Assembly: GCA_946886475.1 (NCBI GenBank)
Contig: CAMPIQ010000043.1
Coordinates: forward strand, 1 to 24,672
Direction: 5' to 3'
DNA: 24,672 nt
Source of the DNA: an uncultured Chitinophagales bacterium
GTDB taxonomy: Bacteria; Bacteroidota; Bacteroidia; Chitinophagales; Chitinophagaceae
In this document: positions 528 to 20,184 of the stretch, piece after piece
How positions within the stretch are numbered: the first letter of the stretch is position 1
Layout: each line of letters opens with the position of its first letter
Program-made: the position numbers and the translations under genes
The notes under the pieces: generated by a model
What the model was told of the DNA's origin: nothing
Database searches by the model: none
The model's input: only the letters and a program-made list of their open reading frames with translations

Positions 528-1367
528 ATGAAAAATATCTTTTTAATGACCGCCTGTTTACTTACCATGAATGGGTTTTCACAAAAAATAAATAACCAGC
601 TTTCATTTGAAAAAGGTAAAAAGCTGGAGATGACCTTAACCGTTAACAGCCTATCGGCATCCATGGGAAATACAACAGTGGATGCTGTGATTGAAAGAGT
701 ATTTGATATTGAAGATGTGATAAACGGGAATGCTGTAATTGAACACAAGATCAAAAGGATTCAGTTCAAAATGCAAAGCATCATGGGCGCTGAAGATTTT
801 GATTCGGAAAGAGAACAGGACAGGAAGGGTAATATGGGTAAGGCTTTTGAAAAAACACTGAAAAGCAAGTATACAATGACCATTGATGCCTACGGAAAAA
901 TACTGGATGTTAAGAAAGATGATGACAACAATGCTGAAAATAATGCGGCCACCAACGATATGATCGCTAATATTCTCGCCCAGTCAGGTGCAGGTATCAA
1001 AGAACCCGTTGCAGGTGAAGGATCGGATTTCATGATCCTGCCGGCCGGGGAATCAGGATCAGGCGACAGCTGGACAGATTCCCTGGAAAATGGTATTGGT
1101 CATTATACCATTGAAGCCATAACCGATTCAACTATTGTCATTCAGTTGAATGAAGAGATCCAGGTAAACCAGAAACAGGAGATGATGGGTAATGAGATCA
1201 ATATTATAACAGTTGAAAAATCAACAGGTACCATTCTACTGGACAGAAAAACAAAATTGCTCAAAGAAAAAAATGTAACCAGCACAGCCGAAGGTACCAT
1301 CAGTGCCATGGGACATACCATGCCGATCAATACGAAGACAACGAAGAAATGGGTGGTGAGGGGGTGA
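528..1367 (+). CDS. Secreted DUF6263-like protein
   Basis: A 279-residue protein with an N-terminal signal peptide: basic start, hydrophobic stretch at about residues 4-15, likely cleavage after GFSQ. The mature part is rich in beta-strand-like segments, with charged stretches around residues 90-105 (a run of Glu, Asp and Lys) and an Asp/Asn-rich patch at about 125-140. This layout resembles DUF6263 proteins, common secreted or periplasmic proteins of unknown function in Bacteroidota. No catalytic motif and no lipobox Cys are seen. It is divergent from the DUF4442 gene and convergent with lysA. Its stop codon is at 1365-1367, where a 7-bp-period array begins. The family name is moderately sure; the function is unknown. 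Confidence 0.75.
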   Translation: MKNIFLMTACLLTMNGFSQKINNQLSFEKGKKLEMTLTVNSLSASMGNTTVDAVIERVFDIEDVINGNAVIEHKIKRIQFKMQSIMGAEDFDSEREQDRKGNMGKAFEKTLKSKYTMTIDAYGKILDVKKDDDNNAENNAATNDMIANILAQSGAGIKEPVAGEGSDFMILPAGESGSGDSWTDSLENGIGHYTIEAITDSTIVIQLNEEIQVNQKQEMMGNEINIITVEKSTGTILLDRKTKLLKEKNVTSTAEGTISAMGHTMPINTKTTKKWVVRG

Positions 1368-1400
1368 GCCTCGAGTTGCGAGTTGTGAGCTGTGAGGCCT
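1366..1400. repeat. Degenerate heptanucleotide array (GAGnnnn x5)
   Basis: Five in-phase 7-bp units all starting with GAG: GAGCCTC, GAGTTGC, GAGTTGT, GAGCTGT, GAGGCCT. The first unit overlaps the stop codon of the upstream gene. It lies between two convergent genes (the DUF6263-like gene and lysA). One member of a family of 7-bp-period arrays in this window. Confidence 0.75.
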
Positions 1401-1420
1401 GGTAGCTTACAGCCCGAAGC

Positions 1421-2629
1421 TCAAAAAACCTGTTTGTTCAACAGATCATCAAATTCTTCCCTTCTTCGGATAAGCCTGGCTTCACCGTTCGAAACCAACA
1501 CCTCTGCGGGCTTGAATCTTGAATTGTAATTGCTCGACATTTCAAAACCATAAGCTCCTGCATTATAAAAAACTAGGTAATCTCCTTCTCTTACTTCATG
1601 CAATAAACGGTCCGTTGCAAATGTGTCGGTCTCGCAGATATAACCGGTAACCGTATAGGCTTTTTCCTGGGCCTGCGGATTGGAAATGTTCACTATGTGG
1701 TGATAGGCATCATACATCATAGGACGAATGAGGTGGTTGAGACCACTGTCAACACCTGCAAATGTCTGCACTCCATTTTCCTTGATCACGTTCACTTTGG
1801 TTACGAGGTAACCACATTCGCTCACCAGGAATTTACCAGGCTCAAACCACAACTGGAATTTCTTTCCGTTTATGAACAGATGTTTCTCAGCGTAATTTTT
1901 AAGTTTACCTGCAATCCAGGCCAGGTCGGTTTCCTCATCATCGGGCTCGTAAGGAACTTTAAAGCCACCTCCGAGGTCAATGATCTCCAGATCCGGGAAT
2001 TGAGGAATGAGCTCATTCAATACTTTAATACCGTGTACAAATACATCCGCGTCCTTAATATCACTCCCGGTATGTATGTGAAGCGTATTGACCTTTATTT
2101 TGAATTGATCAACCAAAGAAATCAAAAGACCCACCTGGTCAACAGGGATCCCAAACTTACTTTTTTCATGACCGGTAGATATTTTCAGATTTCCGCCCGC
2201 CAGGATATTCGGACGCATTCTAACGCCAACGGGATAGCTGCCGCCAAATTTTTTTCCGAATTTTTCAAGATTGGATAAGCTGTCAATATTTACATGCACG
2301 CCGGATGCTACTGCTTCTTCAATTTCATCGAAAGCAATTCCATTTGAAGTGTAAAGAATATTCTCCGGTACCACGCCTGCATGCAATGCCAGTTTTACTT
2401 CATTGATGCTGCTGCAATCAATTCCGCATCCAAGTGAATTGATGTATTTGAGAACATTGATATTGGTAAGTGCCTTACAGGCAAAAAAGAATCTGGCGTC
2501 CAATACAGAAAAACCGGATACCAGTTTTTCGTATTGTTCCTTTATTTTTTCAGCATGATATACATAAAGCGGCGTACCGTAACGGTCTGCCAGTTGTGCC
2601 AACCGGCTATGTGGTAAACTTTGGGACAT
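1421..2629 (-). CDS. lysA: Diaminopimelate decarboxylase
   Basis: A 402-residue fold-type III PLP enzyme. LysA removes CO2 from meso-diaminopimelate to give L-lysine, the last step of lysine synthesis, in the cytoplasm. The Schiff-base lysine is K52 in FFFACKALTN. The barrel has HIHTGSD at 184-190, the phosphate-binding Gly loop LGGGF at 219-223, and EPGK at 263-266. The C-terminal domain has C332-E333 and the GAYGFEMSSNYNSR segment (358-371) with Y360, which fits LysA better than other alanine-racemase-fold decarboxylases. The length is normal. It lies 33 bp downstream of scpB on the same strand, so the two are probably co-transcribed. No linked dap genes are seen. Confidence 0.95.
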   Translation of the reverse strand: MSQSLPHSRLAQLADRYGTPLYVYHAEKIKEQYEKLVSGFSVLDARFFFACKALTNINVLKYINSLGCGIDCSSINEVKLALHAGVVPENILYTSNGIAFDEIEEAVASGVHVNIDSLSNLEKFGKKFGGSYPVGVRMRPNILAGGNLKISTGHEKSKFGIPVDQVGLLISLVDQFKIKVNTLHIHTGSDIKDADVFVHGIKVLNELIPQFPDLEIIDLGGGFKVPYEPDDEETDLAWIAGKLKNYAEKHLFINGKKFQLWFEPGKFLVSECGYLVTKVNVIKENGVQTFAGVDSGLNHLIRPMMYDAYHHIVNISNPQAQEKAYTVTGYICETDTFATDRLLHEVREGDYLVFYNAGAYGFEMSSNYNSRFKPAEVLVSNGEARLIRRREEFDDLLNKQVF

Positions 2630-2662
2630 GTAAAATCTATTGGAAGATGGGGCTAAAAATAT

Positions 2663-3643
2663 CTATTGGTTCTCATCCTTCATTTCATCGTCCGTTTCGT
2701 CATCTTCTGCTTCCTCATTCTTATCATGATCAACGGAAGATTCGTCATCCTCAGCTTCCTCTTTTATTTCTTCTGCTTCTTCCACCTCATCACCTTCAAT
2801 AAAAGTTTCATCGGCAATAAATTCTTCTACAGCTTCTTCTGTTGATTCGTCCTCAACCGGAATTTCATCCTGTTCTGCCGGTGAATTTTCAGGGGCAACT
2901 TCCATTTCACCAAAACTATGTCCATTTATAAAACCTTCCTCTTCCGCTCCGGAAATTTCCTGGTCAACAATAAGTTCGCCGTTATCCGAAACAGCTAATT
3001 CCCCCGGTTCAAAATCGGTATGGTGTACAATGGTGGGTTCCACCAATTGGTCGGCAAGCACCTCTTTGATCCTGGGAAGGTCTTCGGGTGAATTGATGCC
3101 GAAATAATCCATAAAGTTTTTGGAAGTGGCATAAACCAATGGATGTCCCGGTAATTTTTCATTTCGTCCGGTAATAACGATCAATTCTTTTTCAAGTAAT
3201 TTTTGAACGGCATAATCGGAGCTTACTCCGCGAATGGCTTCGATCTCACCTTTTGTTACCGGTTGTTTATAGGCAACTATAGCAAGGGTTTCCAAAGCAG
3301 CGGCAGAAAGCCGCTTTAAAAATTTTTCACCATTTAACTGGGCAACGGTCTTATGAAAATCTTTTTTGGTAAGGAATTGCCATCCGCCACCACTCTGTCT
3401 TACTTCGAATGGATAAAATTCAGAATTATATTTTTCAACTATACCATCCATAGCTGCTTCCACCTGGTCAACCACGATCTTATCTTCCATGAAACCAAAA
3501 GCCTGGTTTATGAGATCCGTAAGCTCTAAAGTGGTGAGTGGCTTATCGCTCGCAAAGATCAAAGCTTCGATATGTGGAATAAGTCCCTGCGTTCCTCCAA
3601 ATTCGGAGAACTTAGGTCCTTCGCTATTTTCATTTTCAGACAT
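2663..3643 (-). CDS. scpB: Segregation and condensation protein B with long acidic tail
   Basis: A 326-residue protein. Residues about 20-190 form the ScpB paired winged-helix region, marked by HIEALIFAS near the start, LSAAALETLAIVAYKQPVTKGEIEAIRG in the middle (in two stretches), and GHPLVYATS at about 166-174. ScpB binds ScpA and SMC to form the bacterial condensin that organises and segregates the chromosome. ScpB is usually about 170-220 residues. Here about 120 extra C-terminal residues are overwhelmingly Glu and Asp and look disordered. The coding frame stays open through this low-complexity DNA. It is upstream of lysA (33-bp gap) and downstream of atpG (90-bp gap). scpA is not in the window. 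Confidence 0.93.
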   Translation of the reverse strand: MSENENSEGPKFSEFGGTQGLIPHIEALIFASDKPLTTLELTDLINQAFGFMEDKIVVDQVEAAMDGIVEKYNSEFYPFEVRQSGGGWQFLTKKDFHKTVAQLNGEKFLKRLSAAALETLAIVAYKQPVTKGEIEAIRGVSSDYAVQKLLEKELIVITGRNEKLPGHPLVYATSKNFMDYFGINSPEDLPRIKEVLADQLVEPTIVHHTDFEPGELAVSDNGELIVDQEISGAEEEGFINGHSFGEMEVAPENSPAEQDEIPVEDESTEEAVEEFIADETFIEGDEVEEAEEIKEEAEDDESSVDHDKNEEAEDDETDDEMKDENQ

Positions 3644-3705
3644 GCTTCGACTTGAAGATTATAATAATTGAATACCGTAATTTTTTTTGAGTCTTCACTT
3701 AGTTA

Positions 3706-3720
3706 CCGCCCATCAGGCGG
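3706..3720. other. Small GC-rich hairpin between atpG and scpB
   Basis: CCGCC, loop CATCA, GGCGG: a 5-bp GC stem between the atpG stop and the scpB start. It lacks a T-tract in the minus direction (an A-tract follows instead), so it is not a standard terminator for atpG. It may be an mRNA stability or leader structure. Confidence 0.35.
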
Positions 3721-3733
3721 CGTACAGGGCGTA

Positions 3734-4615
3734 TTATCCCTGCAATGCAGCTGCACCACTTACGATCTCGGTAAGTTCGGTAGTGATGGCCGCCTGTCTT
3801 GCCCGGTTATAAGAGATCTTGAGGCTGCGTAACAGCTCATTCGCATTTTCGCTTGCCTTATCCATAGCCGTCATGCGGGCACCATGCTCGGAAGCATTGG
3901 CATCCAGTACGGCTTTAAATAATTGCGTATTGAGGATCTTGGGCATAAGTTCTGCGATCAGCTCTTCCTGGTTTGGATCGAAAATGAAATCGGCCTTTAC
4001 ACCACTGCCTGAACCGGCAGTTTTGGGTATTGGTAAAAATTGCTCAACTACAAAACGTTGCGTTGCTGCATTTTTGAATTCGCTGTATACGATCTCAACC
4101 GCATCAAATTCTTTTTCCCTGAATGCTTTTACGGCATCCTGAGCCGCTGCCTGAACATTTTCAAAAGTGAGTTTCAGGAATATATCCTTATGACTGTCGT
4201 TAACCTTGTAATTATTTTTTACAAAGTGCTCATATCCTTTTTTACCAATGCTCCAGATGGTAACGTTGCCCCTGCTAAACTGGGTAGCATATTTTTCCTT
4301 TATGGTTTGTTTGGCCAGTTTGATAACGTTGGCATTGTAGGCACCTGCCAGTCCGCGGTCTGAGGTGATCACGATCAATAATACTTTTTCCACAGGCCGT
4401 TCTGTTGCAAGCGTATTACTCCCTTCCACCTGGGTATTGCTCACAATATTACTGAGCATATCCTGCAGCTTTCTGGCATAGGGACGCATTTGAACAATGG
4501 AATCCTGCGCACGACGCAATTTAGCTGCGCTCACCATTTTCATTGCCTTTGTGATCTGCTGCGTACTCTGAACGGATTTGATCCTGTTACGGACTTCTTT
4601 TAACTGGCCGGCCAT
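3734..4615 (-). CDS. atpG: F1Fo ATP synthase gamma subunit
   Basis: A 293-residue protein. The N-terminus, GQLKEVRNRIKSVQSTQQIT then KAMKMVSAAKLRRAQ, and the C-terminal helix with ISYNRARQAAITTEL then TEIVSGAAAL are the two conserved coiled-coil helices of the gamma rotor shaft. Gamma turns inside the alpha3-beta3 ring and couples proton flow through Fo to ATP synthesis; it sits on the cytoplasmic face of the membrane. The length is normal. In most bacteria atpG lies between atpA and atpD, but here its neighbours are scpB (downstream) and a divergent GNAT gene (upstream), so it is detached from the other atp genes. A -7-like box at 4717-4724 and a 7-mer inverted repeat lie upstream. Confidence 0.96.
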   Translation of the reverse strand: MAGQLKEVRNRIKSVQSTQQITKAMKMVSAAKLRRAQDSIVQMRPYARKLQDMLSNIVSNTQVEGSNTLATERPVEKVLLIVITSDRGLAGAYNANVIKLAKQTIKEKYATQFSRGNVTIWSIGKKGYEHFVKNNYKVNDSHKDIFLKLTFENVQAAAQDAVKAFREKEFDAVEIVYSEFKNAATQRFVVEQFLPIPKTAGSGSGVKADFIFDPNQEELIAELMPKILNTQLFKAVLDANASEHGARMTAMDKASENANELLRSLKISYNRARQAAITTELTEIVSGAAALQG

Positions 4616-4621
4616 TTTTCT

Positions 4622-4703
4622 AGTTTAAAGTTTATAGTTCAAAGTTCAAAGTCAGTCGTCTTAACTTATAGAGTCTGGATTGGAACGCTTTGAACTTTGA
4701 ACT
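4622..4703. repeat. Inverted pair of heptanucleotide arrays in the atpG leader
   Basis: The left arm has in-phase 7-mers AGTTTAA, AGTTTAT, AGTTCAA, AGTTCAA at 4622-4649. The right arm is two TTGAACT units at 4690-4703. Positions 4636-4651 and 4688-4703 are perfect 16-bp reverse complements separated by 36 bp, so RNA from either strand could fold into a long stem. It lies between the atpG start and its likely promoter. Confidence 0.85.
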
Positions 4704-4716
4704 GCTATTCGGGCCG

Positions 4717-4724
4717 CAAAAGTA
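4717..4724 (-). promoter_or_regulatory. Likely atpG promoter -7 box (TACTTTTG)
   Basis: The minus strand reads TACTTTTG, an exact match to the Bacteroidota -7 consensus TAnnTTTG. A TTTG further upstream (4753-4750) is a candidate -33 box, but its 25-bp gap is a little long. If used, the atpG leader would be about 95 nt and would include the inverted heptamer repeat. Confidence 0.5.
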
Positions 4725-4772
4725 CGGCATTCCATATTTATTAACCTGCCAAATTTGGGTTTAATTTGGGGC

Positions 4773-5204
4773 ATGGAAATCAAGACAGCCACCACTAAAG
4801 AGGATTTTTTGGACTGCTGGGAAGTGGTTCATGAGCTCAGGCCTCTGTTAACGCCTGAAACCTATATTGAACTGGTGCTGACCATGCTTGACGAAGGGTA
4901 TCATATGATCTATATTGAAGAAAAGGGAAAGGCGGTGGCCTTCTGCGGGTTCCGGTACACAACCATGCTTTACAGGGGAAAAAGCATTTATATTGACGAC
5001 CTCTGTACCCTTCCCAACTGCCGGGGAAAAGGTTATGCCGGCATTTTATTGAAGCATGTGATCGGATTATCCAGGTCTGAAGGGCTTCAAAGCATACACC
5101 TGGATTCCGGGCACTGGAGGCATGACGCCCACCGGCTTTATTTGAATCATGGATTTATTATGAATGCGCATCATTTCGTTCTCGAGCTGTCTGCCAACCG
5201 GTGA
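4773..5204 (+). CDS. GNAT-family N-acetyltransferase
   Basis: A 143-residue single-domain GNAT protein. GNAT enzymes move an acetyl group from acetyl-CoA to an amine. Motif A is DLCTLPNCRGKGYAGILL; R84-G85-K86-G87-x-A89 is the pyrophosphate-binding loop. Near the end, RLYLNHGF (121-128) is the usual motif B region. The substrate cannot be read from the sequence. I chose the ATG at 4773; an upstream in-frame TTG at 4755 would add only six residues and lies in AT-rich promoter-like DNA. The gene is divergent from atpG and convergent with the lipoprotein gene, whose end is 6 bp away, so it is probably a single-gene unit. Confidence 0.85.
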   Translation: MEIKTATTKEDFLDCWEVVHELRPLLTPETYIELVLTMLDEGYHMIYIEEKGKAVAFCGFRYTTMLYRGKSIYIDDLCTLPNCRGKGYAGILLKHVIGLSRSEGLQSIHLDSGHWRHDAHRLYLNHGFIMNAHHFVLELSANR

Positions 5205-5210
5205 TGCGGA

Positions 5211-5906
5211 TTAATTAACCAGTTCAAATTCCCTTTTTAAAGAATAGGTAAGGGTAATTCTTCCCCCTGCTTTTGTTGTTTCTTTTAATGCGCTTTCCTT
5301 TTCCCGGTGAAGTTCAAATCCTATCGGACCATTCTTTAAACGGGCCAGCATTTGAACAGTAATTTTAAGTTCTGCATTGGTAACAGCCACAGGCTGGTTG
5401 ATCCAGCTTGTACCAAATGCCGTATCCGTCATTACCAGCCGCAAAGGCGTTCTGTTCAAAGGAAAATCCTTTAGTTTAACGGTCAGCTCATTTCTTTTGA
5501 TCACAGGTGGTAATGGTGTGGCTAAAGAAAAAGGAGCGAACTCAAATTGCTCCGTAAATTTTTTCCCAAATGAAGTGAGCACGATGGTATGTTTCCCTTT
5601 GAAATCCTCGAAAGGCAATACAACTTCATAATAGACCCCGTTGAAACGGCTACTGTCCGGTGAAATTAGTTTACCATCCAATTGTATACTGGCCGAATCT
5701 TTCAATTTAATGGCCTCTCCATCAGCACCACCCTGCAGGAATTGAAATTTACAGGTCACGAATTCATTGGTCTCTGCTGCGGTAATGGTATAAGCCAGGT
5801 AGATATTTCCCAGGTCACTGGCGTCTGCCTTCACATCCTTATTTTCATTACAACCAGCCATAATGACCGTAAATAATAATAATGCTATGATCGAATTCCA
5901 CCTCAT
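5211..5906 (-). CDS. Putative lipoprotein, function unknown
   Basis: Starting at the ATG at 5906-5904 gives 231 residues beginning with a lipoprotein signal peptide: MRW, a hydrophobic core, then VIMAGC with the lipidated Cys at residue 19. The reading frame is open for 23 more codons upstream, but that start would bury the signal, so I prefer the shorter one. The mature protein seems to be made of repeated beta-rich stretches, possibly two Ig-like modules split near a PLPPVIKRNELTVKL segment. I do not recognise the family. It is probably anchored in the inner or outer membrane, facing the periplasm. It is divergent from secA; the 242-bp gap between them carries a secA promoter candidate. Confidence 0.75.
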   Translation of the reverse strand: MRWNSIIALLLFTVIMAGCNENKDVKADASDLGNIYLAYTITAAETNEFVTCKFQFLQGGADGEAIKLKDSASIQLDGKLISPDSSRFNGVYYEVVLPFEDFKGKHTIVLTSFGKKFTEQFEFAPFSLATPLPPVIKRNELTVKLKDFPLNRTPLRLVMTDTAFGTSWINQPVAVTNAELKITVQMLARLKNGPIGFELHREKESALKETTKAGGRITLTYSLKREFELVN

Positions 5907-6016
5907 ATATTTTCTGATTAATTCCCGGATAATGGCAAAGTACGTTAAACAAAATGTAAAACCTTTTACTGTCACCGCCCGCGTTAAATAGCTAATGGGA
6001 ACACTTCATTTTGATT

Positions 6017-6024
6017 TATCTTTG
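6017..6024 (+). promoter_or_regulatory. Likely secA promoter -7 box (TATCTTTG)
   Basis: Exact match to TAnnTTTG, 124 bp upstream of the secA ATG. No good -33 TTTG is seen at the usual spacing. If used, it gives a secA leader of roughly 115 nt. Confidence 0.45.
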
Positions 6025-6097
6025 ACGCCCTGTCAAATTGGCTTTTGAATACATTAGCACCTTTTTTGACAACAAAAAAGATTACCCCGGTTAGTTA

Positions 6098-6111
6098 AGC
6101 GGTTTGCCGCT
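6098..6111 (+). other. Small hairpin in the secA leader
   Basis: AGCGG, loop TTTG, CCGCT: a perfect 5-bp stem with a 4-nt loop, 37 bp before the secA start. No T-tract follows, so it is not a terminator. It may be a leader structure. Confidence 0.35.
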
Positions 6112-6148
6112 ACAACAACCTTTTACTTAATTAAAAGATTTCATAAAG

Positions 6149-9100: not shown

Positions 9101-9481
9101 TATCTGGAACAAAAAGATCCGCTGGTGATCTATAAGGTGGAAGCGTATAACCTGTTCAGAAGAATGAGTAGCCAGGTGAACCGTGATATCGTTTCCTTCC
9201 TTTGCCATGCCAATCTTCCTGTTCAGCAGGAACAGGCACCCATGCTTCGCGAAGGCCGTCAGCAAAAAACGGATATGAGCAGGATGAGCGCTAATAAAGC
9301 CGAAGTAGATGCAGCGGGCGATGATTATGCAGCCAATGAAAAGGACTATTATGATCCTTCAGGTGGTGGTACGGCCGTAAAACAGGAACCGGTGAAAGTA
9401 GGTCCTAAGATCGGGCGGAATGATCCCTGTCCATGCGGAAGCGGAAAGAAGTATAAGAATTGCCATGGGAAGGATGCGTAG
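6149..9481 (+). CDS. secA: Preprotein translocase ATPase SecA
   Basis: A 1,110-residue SecA, the ATPase motor that pushes unfolded preproteins through SecYEG. Walker A is MATGEGKT (residues 192-199) and the DEAD-like Walker B is DEVD (300-303), followed by [16 protein letters not shown] of the preprotein cross-linking junction. [14 protein letters not shown] and [14 protein letters not shown] mark the second nucleotide-binding domain. The C-terminus [13 protein letters not shown] carries zinc ligands C1094, C1096, C1105 and H1106 (SEC-C), the site that contacts SecB or ribosomes in other species. It is longer than E. coli SecA (901 aa), mainly through insertions such as the charged segment near residues 330-470, as is usual in Bacteroidota. 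A terminator follows at 9606. Confidence 0.98.
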
Positions 9482-9495
9482 GGGATGTGGTTTGG

Positions 9496-9537
9496 AGTTT
9501 AAAGTTTAAAGTTCAAAGTTCAAAGTCGGGAGTCGGG
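9496..9537. repeat. Heptanucleotide array downstream of secA
   Basis: Six in-phase 7-mers, all starting AGT: AGTTTAA twice, AGTTCAA twice, AGTCGGG twice. It starts 14 bp after the secA stop. The later GGACTCC at about 9576-9582 can pair with part of the AGTCGGG end, giving a loose stem. Same unit as the array in the atpG leader. Confidence 0.85.
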
Positions 9538-9605
9538 TTCAAAACATGTAATGGGTACTTTATATACCGCGTATCCGGACTCCAAAAAAAACAATAAAGT
9601 TTCAG

Positions 9606-9630
9606 CCCCGCTATGGCGGGGTTTTGCTTT
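9606..9630 (+). terminator. Rho-independent terminator after secA
   Basis: CCCCGC, loop TATG, GCGGGG, then TTTTGCTTTTT. A 6-bp all-GC stem with a broken T-tract. It separates secA from the rhomboid gene, whose start is 19 bp further on. Confidence 0.85.
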
Positions 9631-11051: not shown

Positions 11052-11089
11052 GAAGGCCAATGGCTAATGGCCACCAGCCATTGGCTTCC
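11051..11089. repeat. Palindromic heptanucleotide array, possible bidirectional terminator
   Basis: In-phase 7-mers CAATGGC, TAATGGC, CACCAGC, CATTGGC at 11058-11085. The same bases form a perfect 10-bp inverted repeat, GCCAATGGCT (11056-11065) with AGCCATTGGC (11076-11085), 10-bp loop, and flanking GGAAG/TTCC extends it. It sits between two convergent genes, so it may stop transcription from both, although no strong T-tract follows. Confidence 0.7.
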
Positions 11090-12422: not shown

Positions 12423-12443
12423 AATTTTTATTTTTTTGTGAAT

Positions 12444-12566
12444 GGGGTTAGGGTTTAAGGTTTTCAGAACTTACAACCTCTCCCGCTTTTTGCCAGCTCC
12501 TCATCTTTTCGAATGATTTGATCGTAGCCATAACCTTAAACATTAAACTTTAAACCCTAAACAAAC
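12444..12566. repeat. Inverted pair of heptanucleotide arrays between the two amidohydrolase genes
   Basis: The left arm is GGGGTTA, GGGTTTA, AGGTTTT (12444-12464). The right arm is AACCTTA, AACATTA, AACTTTA, AACCCTA, AACAAAC (12532-12566). The right arm read in reverse complement resembles the left arm, so the two can pair across a spacer of about 67 bp. Almost all of the 145-bp intergenic region is this structure. Confidence 0.75.
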
Positions 12567-12567
12567 C

Positions 12568-15500
12568 TCACTCATTTGCATCTATTGTTAACAAACCATG
12601 ACTGTGAAGGTGATCAGAACAAGTATGCATGATCTGGTAACTTGGTATGGCAGGTGTTACCGGTGCGCCACTTCTTTTTTCTCCAACCATTTTAACCACC
12701 AGCCTGTTTCTTTCATTATCAACTGATCTTTGTAACTGTTCATCCCTTGCACGGTCAAAATAAATAATGCCGTCAACAATAGTGTATAATGATTTGGCAT
12801 AAATACTTAATGGATGATGGCTCCATAGAACCACATCGCCATCTTTACCGGTTTTGAGGCTGCCTACCCTGTCATCCACATGCAACATTTTTGCAGCATT
12901 CAGTGTAACCATTTTGAGCGCTTCCTCCTCAGTAACACCGCCATACTTCACGATCTTGGCCGCTTCCTGGTTCAACCTTCTTGCCATTTCCGCATCATCG
13001 GAATTGATAGCTACATTCAGGCCTATCTTATGCATGATGGCGGCATTATATGGAATGGCATCCTGCACTTCCATTTTATAAGCCCACCAGTCAGAGAAAG
13101 TAGAGGCGTTGGAACCATGTGCCTTCATTTTATCAGCCACCTTATAACCCTCCAGGATATGGGTAAATGTATTAACGGTATAGCCCATGCGCTCTGCAAC
13201 TTCCATGGCACTATTGATCTCACTCTGCACATAAGAATGGCAGGTGATGAAACGTTTTTTATCCATAATCTCCACCAGCGCTTCCAGCTCCAGGTCTCTC
13301 CTGGGTGGTGTTAATCCCTTTTTATCTTTTGCACTGTTATAATCCTCCCATCCTTTCTTATAATCCTTTGCCCTGGTGAAAGCATCCACCAGAACCTGTT
13401 CAACACCCATGCGCGTATCGGGATAGCGGATGTTATTGGAACTATTGCCAAGCGCTGCAGGCGATCTTTTTACATTCTCACCCAAAGCAAACTTGATCTG
13501 TCCAGGCCAGTTCTTAAATTTCAATTCTTCATCATTAGCACCCCAGCGAAGTTTGATCAATTGTGTTTGTCCGCCGATAACATTGGCTGAACCATGAAGA
13601 ATATGAGAGGTAGTAACACCACCACTTAACTGGCGGTAAATATTTATATCATCAGGATTTAAGTTATCAGCTATCCTCACCTCGGATGTTACGCTTTGTC
13701 CTCCTTCATTAATGGATGCCGCAGCAATATGTGAATGTTCATCAATAATGCCGGGTGTAACGTGTTTGCCTGTTCCATCAATAACTCTTGCAGATGCATC
13801 TGAAAGATTTTTTCCAACACCTGCGATCTTTCCATTTTTTATCAGCACATCTGCATTTTGCAACACACCCTCTTTTTCATTGGTCCATACAGTGGCATTT
13901 TTAATAAGGATCGTTTCCTGCCTGGGCGCCTGGTCTTCCGTCCAGCCAAAAGGTTCAAAAGGATAGACCAGCTTTCCAACCTGTCCCGGTTTTCTTGAAC
14001 GTGCGCTATCAGATCTTTGTACTGCGGGTGAATTCATGATGGCAGTCCAGGTAAATAAATTTCCAAGACTGTCTTCACCTGTACCACTCCAACCCTGATC
14101 ATTCACCATTCCGCTCAATCGAAAACTTTCGCCCGGCATTCTTCTTTCAGGTGCCACATTGATCCGCACCTGGCGTCCGTCAAAATAAAATTTCGATGTT
14201 ACGGTATCCTTTCCTATCAAACTGGCTGAATTATTTGTTTTAAAATCGAGTATATAATCAACAGGACCTGTTGACCGGTTCAGGGTTATTTTATATTTAC
14301 CACGGGGGTCCGTCCAGGTTTCATCCTTCACACTGTATTTTTTACCCTGCACCCAGTTCTGGTAAATAGTGGTTTTATCCTTGAACACGGGTCCTGATGT
14401 TATAATAAAATTGGCGATCTTACCCTCATCCAGGCTGCCAACTTTATCATAAACACCCAATAAAGTTGCAGGGGTTTTGGTGAGGGCATTCAATGCGGCG
14501 GTCTCACTCAAACCATAATTAAAAGCTGTTCTCAGGTTGGTCATAAAAGAACGCGGATCCCTGAGGTCTGAGGTGGTTAAACAAAAAGGGATACCTGCTT
14601 TTTCAAAAGCAGCCGGATTAGAAGGCGCCATTTCCCAATGCAACATATCTGTCAGGGAAACAAATCTTGCATCTGCGGGATCTTCCACATCCTGGGCCTG
14701 CGGAAAGTTCAAAGGCAGAATGAAGCTGGCACCGGTTGCCTTCATTTCTTTGATCCTTTGATATTCATTTTGTCCCCCTTTGATGATATACTGCACACCA
14801 AATTCATCACCAATCCTGTCGGCCCGGAGGTTATTCCATTTATCGTTGGCTTCAAAGATCTGAGGTAGTCCCTGATTTTCATTCCAGGCCTGCAGACTAA
14901 GATTCAGTCCTTCTGCAGCCGGTTTATTTTTATACCATTGCGCGTCCAGGTAGGTCTGACGCAATAAGGCGATCATTCCCATCATGGATCCCGGATAGCT
15001 TTGCCTTGAAGAGCCCCTGCTAAAAGAATAATGAGCAGATGCCCTGTCCTTCAATATGGAAAAGTTTTCCTTTTCAGTTGAAAGCGTAACCAGCGTACCT
15101 GTACCGCGGGCAATTCCATCTCTTACATGTGAAAGCACCGTACCAAATCCCGCATCGCGGAGCGTTTTTGCTTTATTGGCATCCACCGCAAAAACCTTAA
15201 ATGCTTCAGCATCGCTTTTTATGGCCTGGTTCCATCCGTATGCACCTTTTGTATTGGATTCCAACTGCGGTTGCTGGGCAAAATTGAATTGATTCCCACC
15301 CGGACCTGACGGTGGCAAACTGGTACCATAGTCGGCATAGATATCTATGAAAGAAGGATAAATATATTTACCCTTACAATCCACTTCTATGGCCCCGGCC
15401 GGAAGCTTCAGATTAGAACCCACTGCAACAATTTTCCCGTCTTTGATGATCAGCGTAGCATTTGTGATGGTGGAATTTGCATCTTTTACAATAGTAGCAT

Positions 15501-15627
15501 TTGTAAAAGCATAATGACCATACCGGGGATCTGCCACTCCGTTTTCGGGGAAGGTGGGCTGGGCAGAAACCATGGTGGACATCAGCAAAATTCCACATAG
15601 CAATAAGAAGCAATTAGCTTTTTTCAT
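12568..15627 (-). CDS. Secreted double-domain amidohydrolase (one active, one degenerate domain)
   Basis: From the ATG at 15627-15625 the protein has 1,019 residues, with a signal peptide starting MKKANCFLLLCG and ending MVSAQ. The frame is open for 44 more codons upstream, but those would precede the signal peptide, so the shorter start is preferred. Residues about 30-460 form a first amidohydrolase-like domain whose HxH is replaced (FIDIYAD). Residues about 580-970 form a second domain with all ligands: H631 and H633 (DEHSHI), H797 (TCHSY), H823 (FTHILEG) and D877 (NSDD). A linker of about 100 residues joins them. The extreme C-terminus has H1001, C1003, D1005, H1006, H1008 and H1010, a possible extra metal site. 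Probable role: periplasmic hydrolase of a cyclic amide or peptide-like substrate; the substrate is unknown. Confidence 0.9.
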   Translation of the reverse strand: MKKANCFLLLCGILLMSTMVSAQPTFPENGVADPRYGHYAFTNATIVKDANSTITNATLIIKDGKIVAVGSNLKLPAGAIEVDCKGKYIYPSFIDIYADYGTSLPPSGPGGNQFNFAQQPQLESNTKGAYGWNQAIKSDAEAFKVFAVDANKAKTLRDAGFGTVLSHVRDGIARGTGTLVTLSTEKENFSILKDRASAHYSFSRGSSRQSYPGSMMGMIALLRQTYLDAQWYKNKPAAEGLNLSLQAWNENQGLPQIFEANDKWNNLRADRIGDEFGVQYIIKGGQNEYQRIKEMKATGASFILPLNFPQAQDVEDPADARFVSLTDMLHWEMAPSNPAAFEKAGIPFCLTTSDLRDPRSFMTNLRTAFNYGLSETAALNALTKTPATLLGVYDKVGSLDEGKIANFIITSGPVFKDKTTIYQNWVQGKKYSVKDETWTDPRGKYKITLNRSTGPVDYILDFKTNNSASLIGKDTVTSKFYFDGRQVRINVAPERRMPGESFRLSGMVNDQGWSGTGEDSLGNLFTWTAIMNSPAVQRSDSARSRKPGQVGKLVYPFEPFGWTEDQAPRQETILIKNATVWTNEKEGVLQNADVLIKNGKIAGVGKNLSDASARVIDGTGKHVTPGIIDEHSHIAAASINEGGQSVTSEVRIADNLNPDDINIYRQLSGGVTTSHILHGSANVIGGQTQLIKLRWGANDEELKFKNWPGQIKFALGENVKRSPAALGNSSNNIRYPDTRMGVEQVLVDAFTRAKDYKKGWEDYNSAKDKKGLTPPRRDLELEALVEIMDKKRFITCHSYVQSEINSAMEVAERMGYTVNTFTHILEGYKVADKMKAHGSNASTFSDWWAYKMEVQDAIPYNAAIMHKIGLNVAINSDDAEMARRLNQEAAKIVKYGGVTEEEALKMVTLNAAKMLHVDDRVGSLKTGKDGDVVLWSHHPLSIYAKSLYTIVDGIIYFDRARDEQLQRSVDNERNRLVVKMVGEKRSGAPVTPAIPSYQIMHTCSDHLHSHGLLTIDANE

Positions 15628-15720
15628 GTGTAGAATGTTTTGAATTTTCCTGGTAAACATGTGTGATTTGAAGAATGCCCAATTTAAAGACTTTTTAAAT
15701 GCAATCATTTGTAAAGAGAT

Positions 15721-15753
15721 AAAAGAAGAAAAAGAAGGAAAGGAGGAAAAAAG
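15721..15753 (+). other. 33-bp uninterrupted purine tract
   Basis: All A or G from 15721 to 15753, in the divergent region between the large amidohydrolase gene and deoC. No gene function is assigned. Such tracts can adopt unusual DNA structure or act as AT-rich upstream elements. Confidence 0.7.
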
Positions 15754-15761
15754 CCCCATGC

Positions 15762-15796
15762 CACTGGCTTATGGCTATTGGCTTTCAGCTCTTAGC
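15762..15796. repeat. Heptanucleotide array overlapping the deoC promoter region
   Basis: Five in-phase 7-mers ending GC: CACTGGC, TTATGGC, TATTGGC, TTTCAGC, TCTTAGC. It directly precedes the deoC -7 box at 15799 and contains the candidate -33 ATTG (15777-15780). Confidence 0.8.
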
Positions 15797-15798
15797 TT

Positions 15799-15806
15799 TA
15801 CCTTTG
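15799..15806 (+). promoter_or_regulatory. Likely deoC promoter -7 box (TACCTTTG)
   Basis: Exact TAnnTTTG match, with TTG at 15778-15780 exactly 18 bp upstream as a -33 box. Transcription would begin near 15813, about 9 nt before the ATG at 15822. This rules out the in-frame ATG at 15771, which lies upstream of the promoter. Confidence 0.6.
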
Positions 15807-15821
15807 ACGCAATTAGATCAT

Positions 15822-16742
15822 ATGGCCATTTTTAAAGAAAAGATCATCATTCCCGATTTCCGTTTATCCCCGAGGATTGACCAGGTGGGACAGGAAGAAA
15901 GAGCATCAAGATTTACGAAGAGAAGCATTAAGAAGGAATCGAAGGTGGATGGGTTGAAACTGGTTCTCAGCATGATTGACCTTACAACGCTGGAAGGAAA
16001 GGATACGCCCGGTAAAGTGAAACAGCTTTGTTACAAGGCAAGTCACCTTCACCAAGCATATGATGATCTTCCAACGGTGGCTGCTGTTTGTGTGTATCCT
16101 TCCATGGTGAAGGTGGCAAAAAAAGCAGTGGAAGGATCAGGAATAAAAATAGCTTCGGTAGCAACAGCTTTCCCAAGCGGACAGGCCGCCACAGATGTAA
16201 AACTCCGTGATACAAAATATGCAGTGAATGAAGGTGCGGATGAAGTGGACATGGTGATATCAAGAGGGAAGTTTCTTTCAGGTGAATACAATTTTGTTTT
16301 TGATGAAATTGCTGCAGTAAAAGAAGCCTGTGGTGAAGCCAGGTTAAAGGTGATACTTGAAACCGGTGAACTGGTAACGCTTGATAAAGTACGAAGGGCC
16401 AGTGATATTGCTATGTATGCAGGAGCGGATTTTATCAAAACATCAACCGGCAAGGTTCAACCAGCTGCCACCATGCCAGTAACACTTACCATGCTGGAGG
16501 CTATTCGTGATTATTATTATAATACAGGAAAAATGATCGGCATGAAACCGGCAGGTGGTATTTCCAAATCAAAACTGGCACTTCATTACCTGGTGATGCT
16601 GAATGAGGTTTTGGGAGAAGACTGGATGAATAACCAATGGTTCCGGTTTGGAGCCAGCAGCCTGGCCAACGATGTGTTGATGCAACTGGTAAAAGAAAAG
16701 TCAGGTCTTTATCAAAGTGCTGATTATTTTTCGATCGACTGA
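15822..16742 (+). CDS. deoC: Deoxyribose-phosphate aldolase
   Basis: A 306-residue class I aldolase that splits 2-deoxyribose-5-phosphate into glyceraldehyde-3-phosphate and acetaldehyde, the last step of deoxynucleoside breakdown. The Schiff-base Lys is K206 in DFIKTSTGK, the second active-site Lys is K242 in GMKPAGG, and the proton-relay Asp is D143 in EVDMVI. DLTTLEGKDT (53-62) is the first barrel strand motif. The protein carries about 45 more N-terminal residues than the 259-aa E. coli enzyme. The start at 15822 is chosen because a promoter box lies between it and the upstream in-frame ATG at 15771. Two aldehyde dehydrogenase genes follow on the same strand. Confidence 0.95.
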   Translation: MAIFKEKIIIPDFRLSPRIDQVGQEERASRFTKRSIKKESKVDGLKLVLSMIDLTTLEGKDTPGKVKQLCYKASHLHQAYDDLPTVAAVCVYPSMVKVAKKAVEGSGIKIASVATAFPSGQAATDVKLRDTKYAVNEGADEVDMVISRGKFLSGEYNFVFDEIAAVKEACGEARLKVILETGELVTLDKVRRASDIAMYAGADFIKTSTGKVQPAATMPVTLTMLEAIRDYYYNTGKMIGMKPAGGISKSKLALHYLVMLNEVLGEDWMNNQWFRFGASSLANDVLMQLVKEKSGLYQSADYFSID

Positions 16743-16759
16743 AAAATTATTTCATCATC

Positions 16760-16793
16760 ATCTTTCCCTGACCAAATGAAAGATCAGCTTTTT
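16760..16793 (+). terminator. Weak terminator-like hairpin between deoC and the aldehyde dehydrogenase gene
   Basis: ATCTTTC (16760-16766) and GAAAGAT (16778-16784) form a 7-bp AT-rich stem with an 11-nt loop, then CAG and five T. It could act as a partial terminator or attenuator; the low GC makes it uncertain. Confidence 0.35.
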
Positions 16794-16900
16794 GAAAACA
16801 ATATATGAACCGGACCCGGATAGAATTATTATAAGTAAACAAAATCTCCAAACAGCTTTCCCCTGGTTGCAGGGTAGAGATAAAGAGACAAAAAATAAAT

Positions 16901-18415
16901 ATGGCAGTAAAAGCAAAAAAAAATCCTGTGGTGAAAGAGAAGGGAGCGAAAAGCAATGTAGTTCCAAAGTTGAAATTCAATACCGGATGGGAATATGCAC
17001 CTGCTCCGGAAGGAACAGGCCATATTAAACTCAATGACCGCTATGACCTTTTCATCAATGGAAAATTTGTAAAACCATCTTCCGGAAAATATTTTGAAAC
17101 CATCAACCCGGCCAATGAGCAAAAGCTTTCCGAAGTTGCAGAAGCCAATACTGCTGATGTGGACAAGGCCGTAAAGGCAGCAAGGAATGCCTATGATAAA
17201 TACTGGAGAAAAATGCCTGCTGCTGAGAGGGCAAAATATATTTTCAGGATCTCAAGGATGATCCAGGAAAGAGCCAGGGAACTGGCTGTGATAGAAACCC
17301 TTGATGGCGGAAAAACCATCCGTGAATCAAGAGATATAGACGTGCCACTTGCAGCCAGTCATTTCTTTTATTATGCCGGATGGGCCGATAAACTGGATTA
17401 TGCATTTCCTAACCGGCAACCACAATCCCTGGGTGTTGCAGGTCAGATCATACCCTGGAATTTTCCATTGCTGATGGCGGCCTGGAAAATTGCACCTGCA
17501 CTGGCAACCGGTAATACGGTTGTATTGAAACCAGCAGAAACCACTCCGCTTACTGCACTGAAACTTGCTGAGATCATTCAGGAATGTGGCTTGCCCGAAG
17601 GGGTTGTAAATATCATTACAGGTTTTGGACAAACAGGTGCTGACCTCGTGAATCATCCGGGCGTTGATAAAATTGCATTTACCGGTTCCACCGAAGTGGG
17701 TAAGATCATCCAAAGATCCGTTGCAGGCACAGATAAAAAGGTGACGCTTGAATTAGGTGGCAAGGCTGCGAATATAATTTTTGAAGATGCCCCGCTTGAC
17801 CAGGCGGTGGAAGGAATTATCAATGGCATTTATTTCAACCAGGGCCATGTATGTTGTGCCGGCTCAAGATTGTTTGTACAGGAATCTGTTTACAATATTG
17901 TATTAAGAAAATTAAAAGACCGGATCGAAACACTTATTGTGGGTGATCCTCTTGATAAGAATTCCGACATCGGTGCCATCAATTCAAAAAGTCAGTTGGA
18001 CATTATTAATAAATATGTGAACCTCGGTAAGAAAGATGGCGGAGAGGTTTACCAGAGCGGTTGCAGGATCCCGACAAAAGGGTTCTTCTTCCGTCCTACC
18101 ATTTTTACCAATGTGGCTCAAAGCAACCGTATAGCACAGGAAGAGATATTTGGTCCTGTATTGGCTATTCAGACATTCAGAACAGATGAAGAGGTAATTG
18201 AAAAAGCAAACAATACACCCTATGGTTTGAGTGCAGGTGTATGGACCGATAAAGGATCAAAGATCTTTAATCTTACTACGAAGATGAGAGCCGGTGTTGT
18301 CTGGGCCAATACTTATAACAAGTTCGATCCAACATCACCCTTCGGAGGATATAAGGAAAGCGGATATGGCAGAGAAGGTGGATTGCATGGATTAGGCGGA
18401 TATGTAAAATTCTAA
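16901..18415 (+). CDS. Aldehyde dehydrogenase (catalytic), ALDH16-like N-terminal half
   Basis: A 504-residue NAD(P)-dependent aldehyde dehydrogenase with all key residues: N187 in PWNFP, K210 in VVLKPAE, GSTEVG at 262-267, the general-base E284 in LELGGK, the nucleophile C318 in QGHVCCAGSR, and E415 in EEIFGPV. It oxidises an aldehyde to the acid. A basic N-terminal extension of about 40 residues precedes the domain. The gene starts 158 bp after deoC and is followed 65 bp later by a truncated, inactive paralogue, a pair that mimics the two-domain ALDH16 chain. Acetaldehyde from DeoC is the obvious candidate substrate by context, but the sequence does not prove it. Confidence 0.94.
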   Translation: MAVKAKKNPVVKEKGAKSNVVPKLKFNTGWEYAPAPEGTGHIKLNDRYDLFINGKFVKPSSGKYFETINPANEQKLSEVAEANTADVDKAVKAARNAYDKYWRKMPAAERAKYIFRISRMIQERARELAVIETLDGGKTIRESRDIDVPLAASHFFYYAGWADKLDYAFPNRQPQSLGVAGQIIPWNFPLLMAAWKIAPALATGNTVVLKPAETTPLTALKLAEIIQECGLPEGVVNIITGFGQTGADLVNHPGVDKIAFTGSTEVGKIIQRSVAGTDKKVTLELGGKAANIIFEDAPLDQAVEGIINGIYFNQGHVCCAGSRLFVQESVYNIVLRKLKDRIETLIVGDPLDKNSDIGAINSKSQLDIINKYVNLGKKDGGEVYQSGCRIPTKGFFFRPTIFTNVAQSNRIAQEEIFGPVLAIQTFRTDEEVIEKANNTPYGLSAGVWTDKGSKIFNLTTKMRAGVVWANTYNKFDPTSPFGGYKESGYGREGGLHGLGGYVKF

Positions 18416-18480
18416 AAGCTGGCTATGGGTAATGAAGGGCTACGGCCTTTTGTTCAACACCCGGCCACTAAAAAAAATAT

Positions 18481-19434
18481 ATGGGAAAACTCATTCAAAA
18501 AAAGTCAACACTTACCATCAGTGAAAATGGATTGGAATCTTCTGTATCCAATAAGAGAGTGGAAGTTTTAAAAACCTATAAGCTTTACATAGGAGGGCAA
18601 TTTCCAAGAACTGAAAGCGGAAGGTATTATGTGGCCACCAACGCCGGCGGACAACAACTTGCCAATGTAAGCCTGGGTTCGCGTAAAGATATACGTGATG
18701 CAGTGGTGGCTGCAAGAAGCGCATTCAAGGGATGGCCGGCAAGAGCCGCGTTCAACCGTGGACAGATACTTTACCGGATGGCAGAAATGCTGGAAGGCAG
18801 AAAGGCCCAGTTCATGGAGGAACTGATAAGTCAGGATCAAACCAGGGCACAGGCGCAAAAAGAAGTGAATACCGCAATTGACAGGTTGATCTATTATGCC
18901 GGATGGTGCGATAAGTACCAGCAATTATTCGGGACCGTAAACCCTGTTGCTACATCCCATTTTAATTTTTCTGTTCCTGAACCAACCGGAGTAGTAGCAG
19001 CTATTGCAGCACAGGATAGTTCTTTGATAGGACTGGTTTCTGTTATCGCACCTGTTATTGCAGGGGGCAATACCTGTGTTGTTCTGGCTTCCGAATCAAA
19101 ACCACTTTGTTCCATCACATTTGCCGAAGTGCTTCATTCATCCGACCTGCCAGGAGGTGTGGTAAACATCCTGACCGGAAAGGTTGCTGAACTGGCCTCC
19201 CAATTTGCGGCGCATATGGATATAAATGCCGTGATCTATTGCGGCGAAGATGATGCTGTTCAAAAAGAACTGCAACAAAAGGGCGCTGTTAATGTTAAAC
19301 GGATCCATATTTATAAAAATATAAACTGGTTAAGTGAAAAAGGCCAGTCTCCTTATTTCATCATGGATGCGCAGGAGATCAAAACAACCTGGCACCCTAT
19401 TGAGAATATAGGTGCAGGGGGAGGCGGCTATTAA
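18481..19434 (+). CDS. Truncated, catalytically dead aldehyde dehydrogenase paralogue, ALDH16-like C-terminal half
   Basis: A 317-residue protein that aligns with the NAD-binding part of aldehyde dehydrogenases: KLYIGGQFPRTESGRYY (34-50), RDAVVAARSAFKGW (72-85), PTGVVAAIAA (168-177), GGVVNILTGK (225-234). The active-site Asn region PWNF is replaced by AAQDS, the adenine-contact Lys of VVLKP is replaced by VVLASES, the GSTEVG loop reads CGEDDAV, and the protein ends before the catalytic Glu and Cys segments. It therefore cannot catalyse on its own. It ends in WHPIENIGAGGGGY. No aldehyde-dehydrogenase-like sequence continues after the stop in any frame I checked, so this looks like a real short protein, not a recent break. 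Likely role: structural or regulatory partner of the upstream enzyme. Confidence 0.85.
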   Translation: MGKLIQKKSTLTISENGLESSVSNKRVEVLKTYKLYIGGQFPRTESGRYYVATNAGGQQLANVSLGSRKDIRDAVVAARSAFKGWPARAAFNRGQILYRMAEMLEGRKAQFMEELISQDQTRAQAQKEVNTAIDRLIYYAGWCDKYQQLFGTVNPVATSHFNFSVPEPTGVVAAIAAQDSSLIGLVSVIAPVIAGGNTCVVLASESKPLCSITFAEVLHSSDLPGGVVNILTGKVAELASQFAAHMDINAVIYCGEDDAVQKELQQKGAVNVKRIHIYKNINWLSEKGQSPYFIMDAQEIKTTWHPIENIGAGGGGY

Positions 19435-19660
19435 AAAGCAGTTCAACAATATGCACAGGCAGAGGCAACACTTGAAAGGGAACATTCGTCAGCCCGGATG
19501 TTTTATTTTATAATTGAATATGTTAAGACGCTCAGAAATAAATGATCCGCTATGAATTTTTTCACATCACAACTGAAGAAATCCATAACAGCTCGTTAAT
19601 ATAAATCCATCCTGTTCAGGTTTGGAAAGATTTTTGAATAAGAATGTCAACCTTTATATC

Positions 19661-20089
19661 ATGAAGATCTTTTTTCTTTCCTTATTTACTTTTATTACAG
19701 GATTTGTTTTTGCGCAGGATGCATCTGATACCGGTTCAATAGTTATACATAAAGACCCCAGGGTTGATGTATTACTCAAGAAACAGGCAGATATCAATGC
19801 GGCCAATAAAAGAGCCAGTGCAAGAACTGCAAGAGGATATCGCCTATTGGTGGTAAGCACCAACAAAAGGGACGAAGCCATTTCGGCAAAGACAAAAATA
19901 TATACCAACTTTCCGGAATTGCAGGCTTATCTGGTGTACCAGACCCCTTACTTTAAATTGAAAGCAGGAAATTTCAGAACAAGAGAAGAAGCCAAAGATT
20001 ATCAAAAACTTTTATCGGTTTATTTTCCCAAAGGCGTGATCGTGATTTCAGATATAATTGAGGTAACACCTGAAAAAGAAGACAATTAA
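19661..20089 (+). CDS. Secreted SPOR-domain protein
   Basis: A 142-residue protein with a signal peptide starting MKIFFLSLFTF and ending VFAQ, then one SPOR domain at about residues 59-132 (GYRLLVVSTNKRDEA ... YFKLKAGNFRTREEA). SPOR domains bind peptidoglycan strands lacking stem peptides, as at division septa. There is no transmembrane anchor, so it is probably a soluble periplasmic protein. A TTG at 19622 would add 13 residues before the signal peptide, so the ATG at 19661 is preferred. It is followed by a strong terminator at 20114. It stands 226 bp after the dead aldehyde dehydrogenase gene and is probably separate from it. Confidence 0.85.
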   Translation: MKIFFLSLFTFITGFVFAQDASDTGSIVIHKDPRVDVLLKKQADINAANKRASARTARGYRLLVVSTNKRDEAISAKTKIYTNFPELQAYLVYQTPYFKLKAGNFRTREEAKDYQKLLSVYFPKGVIVISDIIEVTPEKEDN

Positions 20090-20113
20090 TTTACCAGATC
20101 ATATTTTAATGAG

Positions 20114-20137
20114 ATCCGCCCGCAGGCGGATTTTTTT
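20114..20137 (+). terminator. Rho-independent terminator after the SPOR gene
   Basis: ATCCGCC, loop CGCA, GGCGGAT, then seven T. A clear 7-bp GC-rich stem and T-tract 25 bp after the SPOR stop codon. Confidence 0.92.
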
Positions 20138-20156
20138 ATAAGACCAGGGTACGGGC

Positions 20157-20184
20157 CAGTGGCTAATGGCCTATAGCCTATGGC
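20157..20184. repeat. Heptanucleotide array upstream of the M20 gene
   Basis: Four in-phase 7-mers ending GC: CAGTGGC, TAATGGC, CTATAGC, CTATGGC. Same phase pattern as the arrays at 11058 and 15762. Confidence 0.75.

Follow-up and report, generated by a model that had tools for sequence, protein, structure and literature searches.

Seven-nucleotide arrays in intergenic spacers of Bacteroidota: inverted pairing, strand polarity and turnover between species

Introduction

How can many spacers of one chromosome keep the same repeat period while the repeated sequence changes? This question is raised by a stretch of 24,672 nucleotides from an uncultured Chitinophagales bacterium (contig CAMPIQ010000043.1 of assembly GCA_946886475.1; the whole stretch is called the window below), a piece of a Bacteroidota chromosome near Chitinophagaceae. 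An initial annotation had pointed out tandem 7-mers, or heptad arrays, at seven of its intergenic sites and had proposed an active copying process behind them. We analyzed these arrays in the window and in its relatives, on which all genome-wide claims rest. Heptamer repeats have been published for Bacteroidota before; what is new here is that many of the arrays form the arms of inverted repeats.

Results

We scanned the window for tandem periodicity at lags 2-20, requiring 12 of 14 matches. Four lag-7 runs were found in the whole window (1372, 4629, 9490 and 12532), every one of them intergenic, and two lag-14 runs proved to be the same arrays. Only three further runs appeared, a single one at each of lags 3, 9 and 16, and all were scored coding; the lag-9 run (15721-15744) falls at the N-terminal end of an open reading frame (ORF), where the call is doubtful, and may be intergenic. 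When the spacers of the window were shuffled 300 times, the mean number of lag-7 runs was 0.02 and the maximum was 1, compared with the four observed. At the seven annotated sites, self-match at lag 7 was 0.64-0.84 versus 0.00-0.50 at lags 3-6 and 8-11, which bears out the presence of in-phase 7-mers at all seven; the sites at 11058, 15762 and 20157 are genuine but weaker and fall below the threshold of the strict scan. Dinucleotide shuffles of each segment matched its lag-7 value 0, 0, 0, 3, 0, 3 and 0 times in 2000, though these counts are not unbiased p values because the segments were chosen for their periodicity. The arrays were also said to be absent from coding sequence except at one stop codon; the four strict runs are intergenic, and the array at 1366 begins in a stop codon.

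The same scan was applied to 81 sources from Bacteroidota, namely the window and 80 SecA loci (1.57 Mb). The SecA protein of the window has 79% identity (best segment) to that of the metagenome-assembled genome (MAG) Sphingobacteriales nzgw144 and at most 77% to 79 further SecA loci. An excess of lag-7 runs in intergenic over shuffled DNA, which had been set as the test of the periodicity, was found: 41 runs versus 1.7, about 25-fold. These 41 runs lay in 146 kb of intergenic DNA, whereas 1.42 Mb of coding DNA held 13. ORFs were called with a crude longest-ORF script (at least 100 amino acids), on which the distances from stop codons given below also depend, and because of this crude calling some arrays scored coding fall in false ORFs. 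Lag 14 gave 38 intergenic runs versus 1.0 shuffled, and lags 5, 6 and 9 gave at most 4 each. A scan of 200 kb of E. coli K-12 found no lag-7 run. The view that the period is always 7 holds within the window but not in the relatives, where period 8 accounted for 14 intergenic runs versus 1.7 shuffled, five of them in a single source, L022. The segment L022:6558-7624 carries these five period-8 runs (AATTTGAA type) together with one period-7 run.

We then searched for partners of the arrays, an aspect absent from the initial annotation. The set comprised 1613 spacers from 85 sources (3.38 Mb), with L039 and L062, two SecA loci overlapping other stretches, left out; spacers of 30-800 bp were used for partner counts and of 40-500 bp for the G-U test described below. 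The sources are non-independent, in that four Larkinella species are orthologous and families recur. A strict array was carried by 112 spacers. At a threshold of at least 16/21, 46 of these had an inverted partner and 9 a direct one, while shuffles gave 0; at 14/21 the numbers were 64 inverted and 34 direct, with 2 and 5 in shuffles. Many of the arrays are paired in inverted orientation.

The paired arrays have a strand polarity. In the 5' arm, G outnumbered C in 88 and was outnumbered in 9 of 101 period-7 hairpins (p = 2e-17), or 18 to 2 when counted by source, whereas in 202 other hairpins the two classes numbered 95 and 93. Words were also shared between heptad hairpins mostly in the same orientation, at ratios of 15:0, 17:2 and 58:4 in three genomes and 214:37 between sources. 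Other hairpins did likewise (80:14 in genome G053, 5:3 in G003 and 2:0 in G001), and since such sharing is not special to heptads and is expected of any dispersed palindrome, the polarity claim rests on the G/C counts. Arrays with no partner showed a weaker tendency than hairpins, their G-rich strand being directed away from the nearest gene in 36 cases and toward it in 18 (p = 0.02).

Placement relative to genes was also characteristic. Arrays occurred in 24 of 241 convergent, 73 of 1042 tandem and 15 of 330 divergent spacers, corresponding to densities of 0.65, 0.45 and 0.21 per kb. For spacers of the tandem and convergent types, the median distance from the stop codon to the start of the hairpin was 6 nt for heptad hairpins and 21 nt for other hairpins (p = 4e-5); a start within 10 nt was found for 57 of 91 heptad hairpins and 58 of 185 others.

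Orthologous spacers were compared between species; the genome collections used contain a single genome for each. Within the genus to which Larkinella rosea belongs, hairpins with heptad-like arms were seen by eye in the secA spacer of eight of nine species, the ninth having an ordinary terminator. The units vary by species (for example AGTTTAT, GGCAGAG, GTTTACGGTTTTCA, GTTTCCGGTTTTCA), yet they match across both arms; the tip GTGGCTGACGCA is common to several of these hairpins. Between G053 and G056, whose median gene identity is 94%, a C/G difference in the left arm of one spacer is matched by G/C at the paired base of the other arm. At secA of these two genomes, three copies of a unit, two on the left and one on the right, share a single A/C difference. 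There were 35 comparisons of orthologous hairpins in total, 24 of which (12 loci) involved at least one species with period-7 arms. In 20 of the 24, left-arm identity over the longer arm was below 0.8 and the hairpin was present in both species; given that hairpins were selected for complementarity, the informative point is that both species have one. At three G011/G059 loci picked from the 35 comparisons, one with heptad arms and two with other hairpins, the loop aligned inverted and not direct (6, 0 and 0 of 2000 shuffles were as good), and the loops of several other loci align direct.

Arrays were also present in single lineages. In Niastella, G060 has a 219-bp spacer with an array, and the corresponding spacers of its sisters G003 and G067 measure 36 and 33 bp by our crude ORF caller. 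At secA, N. caeni alone among nine readable species of the genus has an array (by eye), which follows the stop codon and precedes an ordinary terminator; a similar terminator is found at secA in four sisters. Other long hairpins lacking period 7, for example of the GGATTACGCGGATTAAAGGATTAA and CTCTGCG types, were noticed at L187-L196 (G053) and L210-L219 (G011), and at loci of these two genomes the tip TGGCTGACGCA is joined to unrelated stems.

Within a genome, arrays fall into families. All 15 arrays of G053, 20 of 25 in G001 and 24 of 30 in G003 had an 8-mer in common with a further array of the same genome at a distance above 3 kb, compared with 8-35% sharing one with arrays of other genomes. 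In G001 (Sediminibacterium MAG RGIG5603), three consecutive TAGTGNN units gave 115 matches on forward and reverse strands together and the reversed-word control gave 0; elsewhere this backward control gave 16 matches in G002 and 8 in G008. A 400-kb stretch of G001 also contains, by eye, AATCTNN, ATAGGTN, AAGGTNN, GAATTNN and GAGACCG arrays. Within 13 TAGTGNN arrays in G001, one family in one genome, the variable dinucleotide was identical between adjacent units in 10 cases out of 37, where 12% was expected (permutation p = 0.0014). G047 showed an extreme expansion, with 402 matches to GAGTTNN x4 and 64 to TAGTGNN x3.

Between genomes, the period is common more than the sequence. In 99 relatives of G007, the relative with the closest SecA, TGGCNNN x4, AGTTYRA x3 and GAGTTNN x4 matched 7, 4 and 16 genomes and their backward-read controls 7, 8 and 16; because the window words matched about as many relatives as the controls, no word is favoured across relatives. 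G007 itself had 0, 0 and 3 matches to these words. Arrays directly 3' of the secA stop codon were seen by eye at no fewer than 7 of 78 other readable loci (L015, L019, L039, L042, L050, L062 and L077), mostly with different units, L019 and L077 being alike. Within a genome, the earlier statement that the arrays are not one dispersed element is only half right, given the 8-mers common to arrays of G053, G001 and G003.

In the window, the units had been said to differ by site. This was overstated, for reading of the sequences reduces the seven sites to three families, GTTTAAA (three sites), TGGCNNA (three sites) and GAGNTGN (one site). The first family comprises 4617 and 9490 (AGTTYAA) and, on the other strand, 12532 (GTTTAAAGTTTAATGTTTAAGG); the second comprises 11055, 15754 and 20155. 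Each of the sites at 4617 and 12532 is a single arm of a pair, with its reverse-complement arm at 4688-4703 and about 12448-12463, respectively.

The GAGNTGN array at 1366..1398 (+ strand, lag-7 match 0.73) starts within the stop codon of ORF 528..1367 and has a weak inverted partner near 1409-1422 (10/14; 1 of 40 shuffles as good; DNA fold z -0.69). The AGTTYAA array at 4617..4652 (+, 0.83), located immediately 5' of the gene for ATP synthase gamma, forms a left hairpin arm; its partner CTTTGAACTTTGAACT at 4688..4703 (-) was identified by sequence, fold and partner search (14/14 at 4688; 0 of 40 shuffles; fold z -4.13). The AGTTYAA array at 9490..9528 (+, 0.84) lies shortly 3' of the secA stop codon (9479-9481) and has no clear inverted partner, the search result being no better than shuffles (20 of 40; fold z -1.32). 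An ordinary terminator-like hairpin distinct from this array, CCCCGC/GCGGGG followed by TTTT, was read at 9605..9625 (+). In the convergent spacer at 11055..11085 (strand unassigned, 0.64; fold z -4.83), the TGGCNNA site contains a palindrome, GCCAATGGC..GCCATTGGC, and because this palindrome sits inside the segment the site has no partner outside it. The array at 12532..12563 (GTTTAAN on the - strand, 0.80) is a right arm; its left arm TTAGGGTTTAAGGTTT at 12448..12463 (+) is 13/14 complementary to it (0 of 40 shuffles), and the whole 135-nt spacer folds no better than shuffles (z 0.03). The two remaining TGGCNNA arrays, neither assigned a strand, are at 15754..15783 (0.65; fold z -1.27), upstream of a DeoC-family gene, and at 20155..20186 (0.72; fold z -0.67), between ORFs 19622..20089 and 20230..21411; the partner search against shuffles found none for either. 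The called start of the DeoC-family ORF is an ATG at 15771, inside the array, and 15822 is the likelier start.

GC-rich ordinary hairpins occur in the window at 9605-9625, 20112-20138 and 21897-21924, the first two with a T-run, and these hairpins suggest that the genome uses standard terminators as well. Ten ORFs were scanned, and their products include a diaminopimelate/ornithine/arginine (DAP/Orn/Arg) decarboxylase, ATP synthase gamma, a GNAT protein, a rhomboid protein, two amidohydrolases, DeoC and an M20 peptidase. Rfam gave no match to the window at gathering scores, and no tRNA or tmRNA, considered as possible insertion sites, was found within it. A likeness of the GTT..AAC arms to integron attC sites was considered and dropped, as the arm order looked reversed.

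Discussion

We favor, with a probability of about one half, an origin of the arrays by duplication of 7-nt units through slippage combined with template switching from arm to arm, in DNA whose content is tolerated. Both processes are common kinds of replication error. Slippage would duplicate units within an arm, with tolerated errors, and polymerase template switching would write one arm onto the other, so that the arms would stay complementary as their sequence drifts; occasionally it would flip the loop. Array DNA would mostly be tolerated and not needed, with selection presumably excluding arrays from genes and thinning them in promoter (divergent) spacers. The identity of adjacent units, the coupled arms and the flipped loops are compatible with these two processes. 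As for the active copying process proposed at the outset, rewriting of sequence is supported by the lag-7 counts, by adjacent-unit identity and by gain and rewriting between sister species; the interpretation overall is partly supported.

Several observations weigh against slippage with template switching. No partner was found even at 14/21 in 48 of the 112 array spacers, a clear hairpin exists at only two or three of the seven window sites, and folding as a DNA strand beats shuffles in only two of seven window spacers (those of 4617 and 11055; the others gave z from -1.32 to 0.03). The evidence for coupled arms is limited to one genus. In the hairpins of G001 that we read, the arms have a common 5-base core and the variable NN positions are unmirrored, so arm copying is not universal and would be weak or old there. 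Some excess exists at other lags, with 6-16 runs versus 0.7-2.3 shuffled at lags 8, 10-12 and 16-18. Furthermore, neither slippage nor template switching predicts genome-wide unit families or the G-rich 5' arm, and the number 7 is unexplained by them.

Among the alternatives, chance or a low-complexity artefact might be invoked as the arrays are short and the spacers AT-rich, but the lag-7 counts against shuffles (4 vs 0.02 in the window, 41 vs 1.7 overall) and their absence from the E. coli DNA led us to reject it, and we regard it as practically negligible. Mobile palindromic elements of several families, resembling repetitive extragenic palindromic (REP) elements or miniature inverted-repeat transposable elements (MITEs), offer an explanation that we find unlikely; a transposase would act in trans and the heptads would be its binding sites. 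Unit families spread through each genome (15/15, 20/25 and 24/30) in one orientation (15:0, 17:2 and 58:4) favor it, as do the conserved tip TGGCTGACGCA on different stems and the gains, namely the 219-bp spacer of G060 against 33-36 bp in its sisters and the secA array of N. caeni, unseen in eight other readable species. However, centres and unit sequences vary between loci. REP elements likewise occur as many intergenic palindromes per genome, and with their transposases (REP-associated tyrosine transposases, RAYTs) they form a system in which a tagged, conserved palindrome is served by a transposase of its own. Unlike in that system, transposase genes here are not regularly flanked by the palindrome: a heptad array adjoined 2 of the 23 Y1-transposase (PF01797) loci examined, L226 (full hairpin) and L228 (array), from Niastella and a sister. 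In that survey 27 loci were taken, 4 without an ORF at the centre were set aside, and 4 of the 27 were below the family cut-off. In addition, PF01797 had no match in G005, a genome of unknown completeness in which TAGTGNN matches 44 times. On these two grounds RAYTs were rejected as the driver.

Selection at the RNA level, with hairpins behind stop codons acting as transcription terminators or 3'-end stabilisers, seems to us rather improbable, although the hairpins begin a median of 6 nt past the stop, are densest in convergent spacers and are kept across species. In tandem spacers, the 3' arm ended with a T-run of at least 4 in 2 of 56 heptad hairpins, compared with 33 of 116 other hairpins (p = 8e-5), and intrinsic terminators were rejected on this count. 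Arm mismatches showed no significant bias of G-U over A-C (60:46, p = 0.21), a weak test because other hairpins equally lack a significant bias (106:87, p = 0.19). Moreover, the secA genes of the window and of N. caeni have an ordinary terminator apart from the array, and the array is absent from sister species. Still less credible is a putative dedicated enzyme, either resembling telomerase or acting as a terminal polymerase of low fidelity, that would add G-rich 7-nt units to 3' ends at spacer breaks; joined ends would then give inverted arrays with the G-rich strand inward on both sides. Such an enzyme predicts the inward G polarity (88:9) and the partnerless arrays pointing from the nearest gene (36:18), and the 5-base core with loose NN in G001 and a period that stays constant while units change also suit it. 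Against it, the mirrored arms of Larkinella would require a second step, and the repeated NN in neighbouring units fits slippage. As a distinctly speculative extension, a putative 7-nt copying activity in Bacteroidota, perhaps also in cyanobacteria and xanthomonads, might extend 3' ends at spacer breaks in a telomerase-like manner, the unit families being its changing templates; G-rich, loosely copied heptads would then yield head-to-head arrays with the G-rich strand inward.

Genera such as Larkinella, Niastella and Sediminibacterium have units swapped at fixed loci between sister species, both arms together, with fixed strand polarity. The 7-nt excess of bacteria was noted in 2007, and its cause and use are left open in PMC4679880 and PMC4692102; these genera make the cause of this old statistical oddity testable. 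Coupled stem changes in spacers can arise by mutation alone and need not imply a functional RNA.

The arrays described here resemble bacterial heptanucleotide simple sequence repeats, being 7-nt tandem units above chance and intergenic. In cyanobacteria, heptamer repeats are known as STRR. Our search of open-access literature turned up no paper that we recognised as reporting a joint change of both arms in heptad arrays or a G-rich polarity of their 5' arm. An overall excess of heptamers and the idea of polymerase slippage are attributed in PMC4679880 to Mrazek et al. 2007, whose long simple sequence repeats, like the cyanobacterial heptamer repeats, show the same period-7 excess (as cited in PMC4679880 and PMC4692102). 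The initial annotation knew of no described equivalent in this phylum, which was wrong: MacGregor 2015 (PMC4679880) reports TAACTGA heptamers in Beggiatoaceae, cyanobacteria and five Bacteroidetes. According to the parts of that paper concerned with Bacteroidetes, other heptamer repeats share TAACTGA spacers in two of them, and at three spacers in two Bacteroidetes a close relative has a shorter, repeat-free spacer. Those repeats are heptameric, intergenic and dispersed like ours, but they have one dominant unit, lie mostly just before start codons in the paper's main genome, include a single indirect repeat and are proposed there as translational sites (PMC4679880).

Coupled arms also have a published counterpart, since homogenisation of arms and inversion of the spacer are described as a signature of template switching (PMC8604942; PMC8794818). 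The cases there share complementary arms, flipped loops and multi-base coupled changes with our loci but, as presented, concern yeast coding genes and RNA genes and not heptad arrays (PMC8604942; PMC8794818). Our arrays show these marks in one genus, with loop inversion at one heptad locus.

The nearest case is that of Rehm et al. 2015 (PMC4692102), who described GGGNATC and GGGGAYT heptamer repeats in Xanthomonas and Nostoc at 186 and 183 dispersed loci, 89-93% intergenic, with 70 and 75 inverted pairs. They lie near gene borders, with 8 and 7% in divergent spacers, and in that account no function was found (PMC4692102). The period of 7 with fixed and loose positions, and length and sequence that vary between close species, are the same as here (PMC4692102), and our arrays share with them inverted pairs in the same spacer (46 of 112, direct 9). 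The Xanthomonas and Nostoc repeats have one G-rich unit per genome, mostly in four copies, and were read as G-quadruplexes (PMC4692102). Among the units read by eye here, those such as AGTTYAA, AATGATG and TAGTGNN lack a G-tract, and a few (ATAGGGA, GGGTAAG) contain one. Unlike those repeats, the arrays described here form several families per genome, and both arms are rewritten together at a locus.

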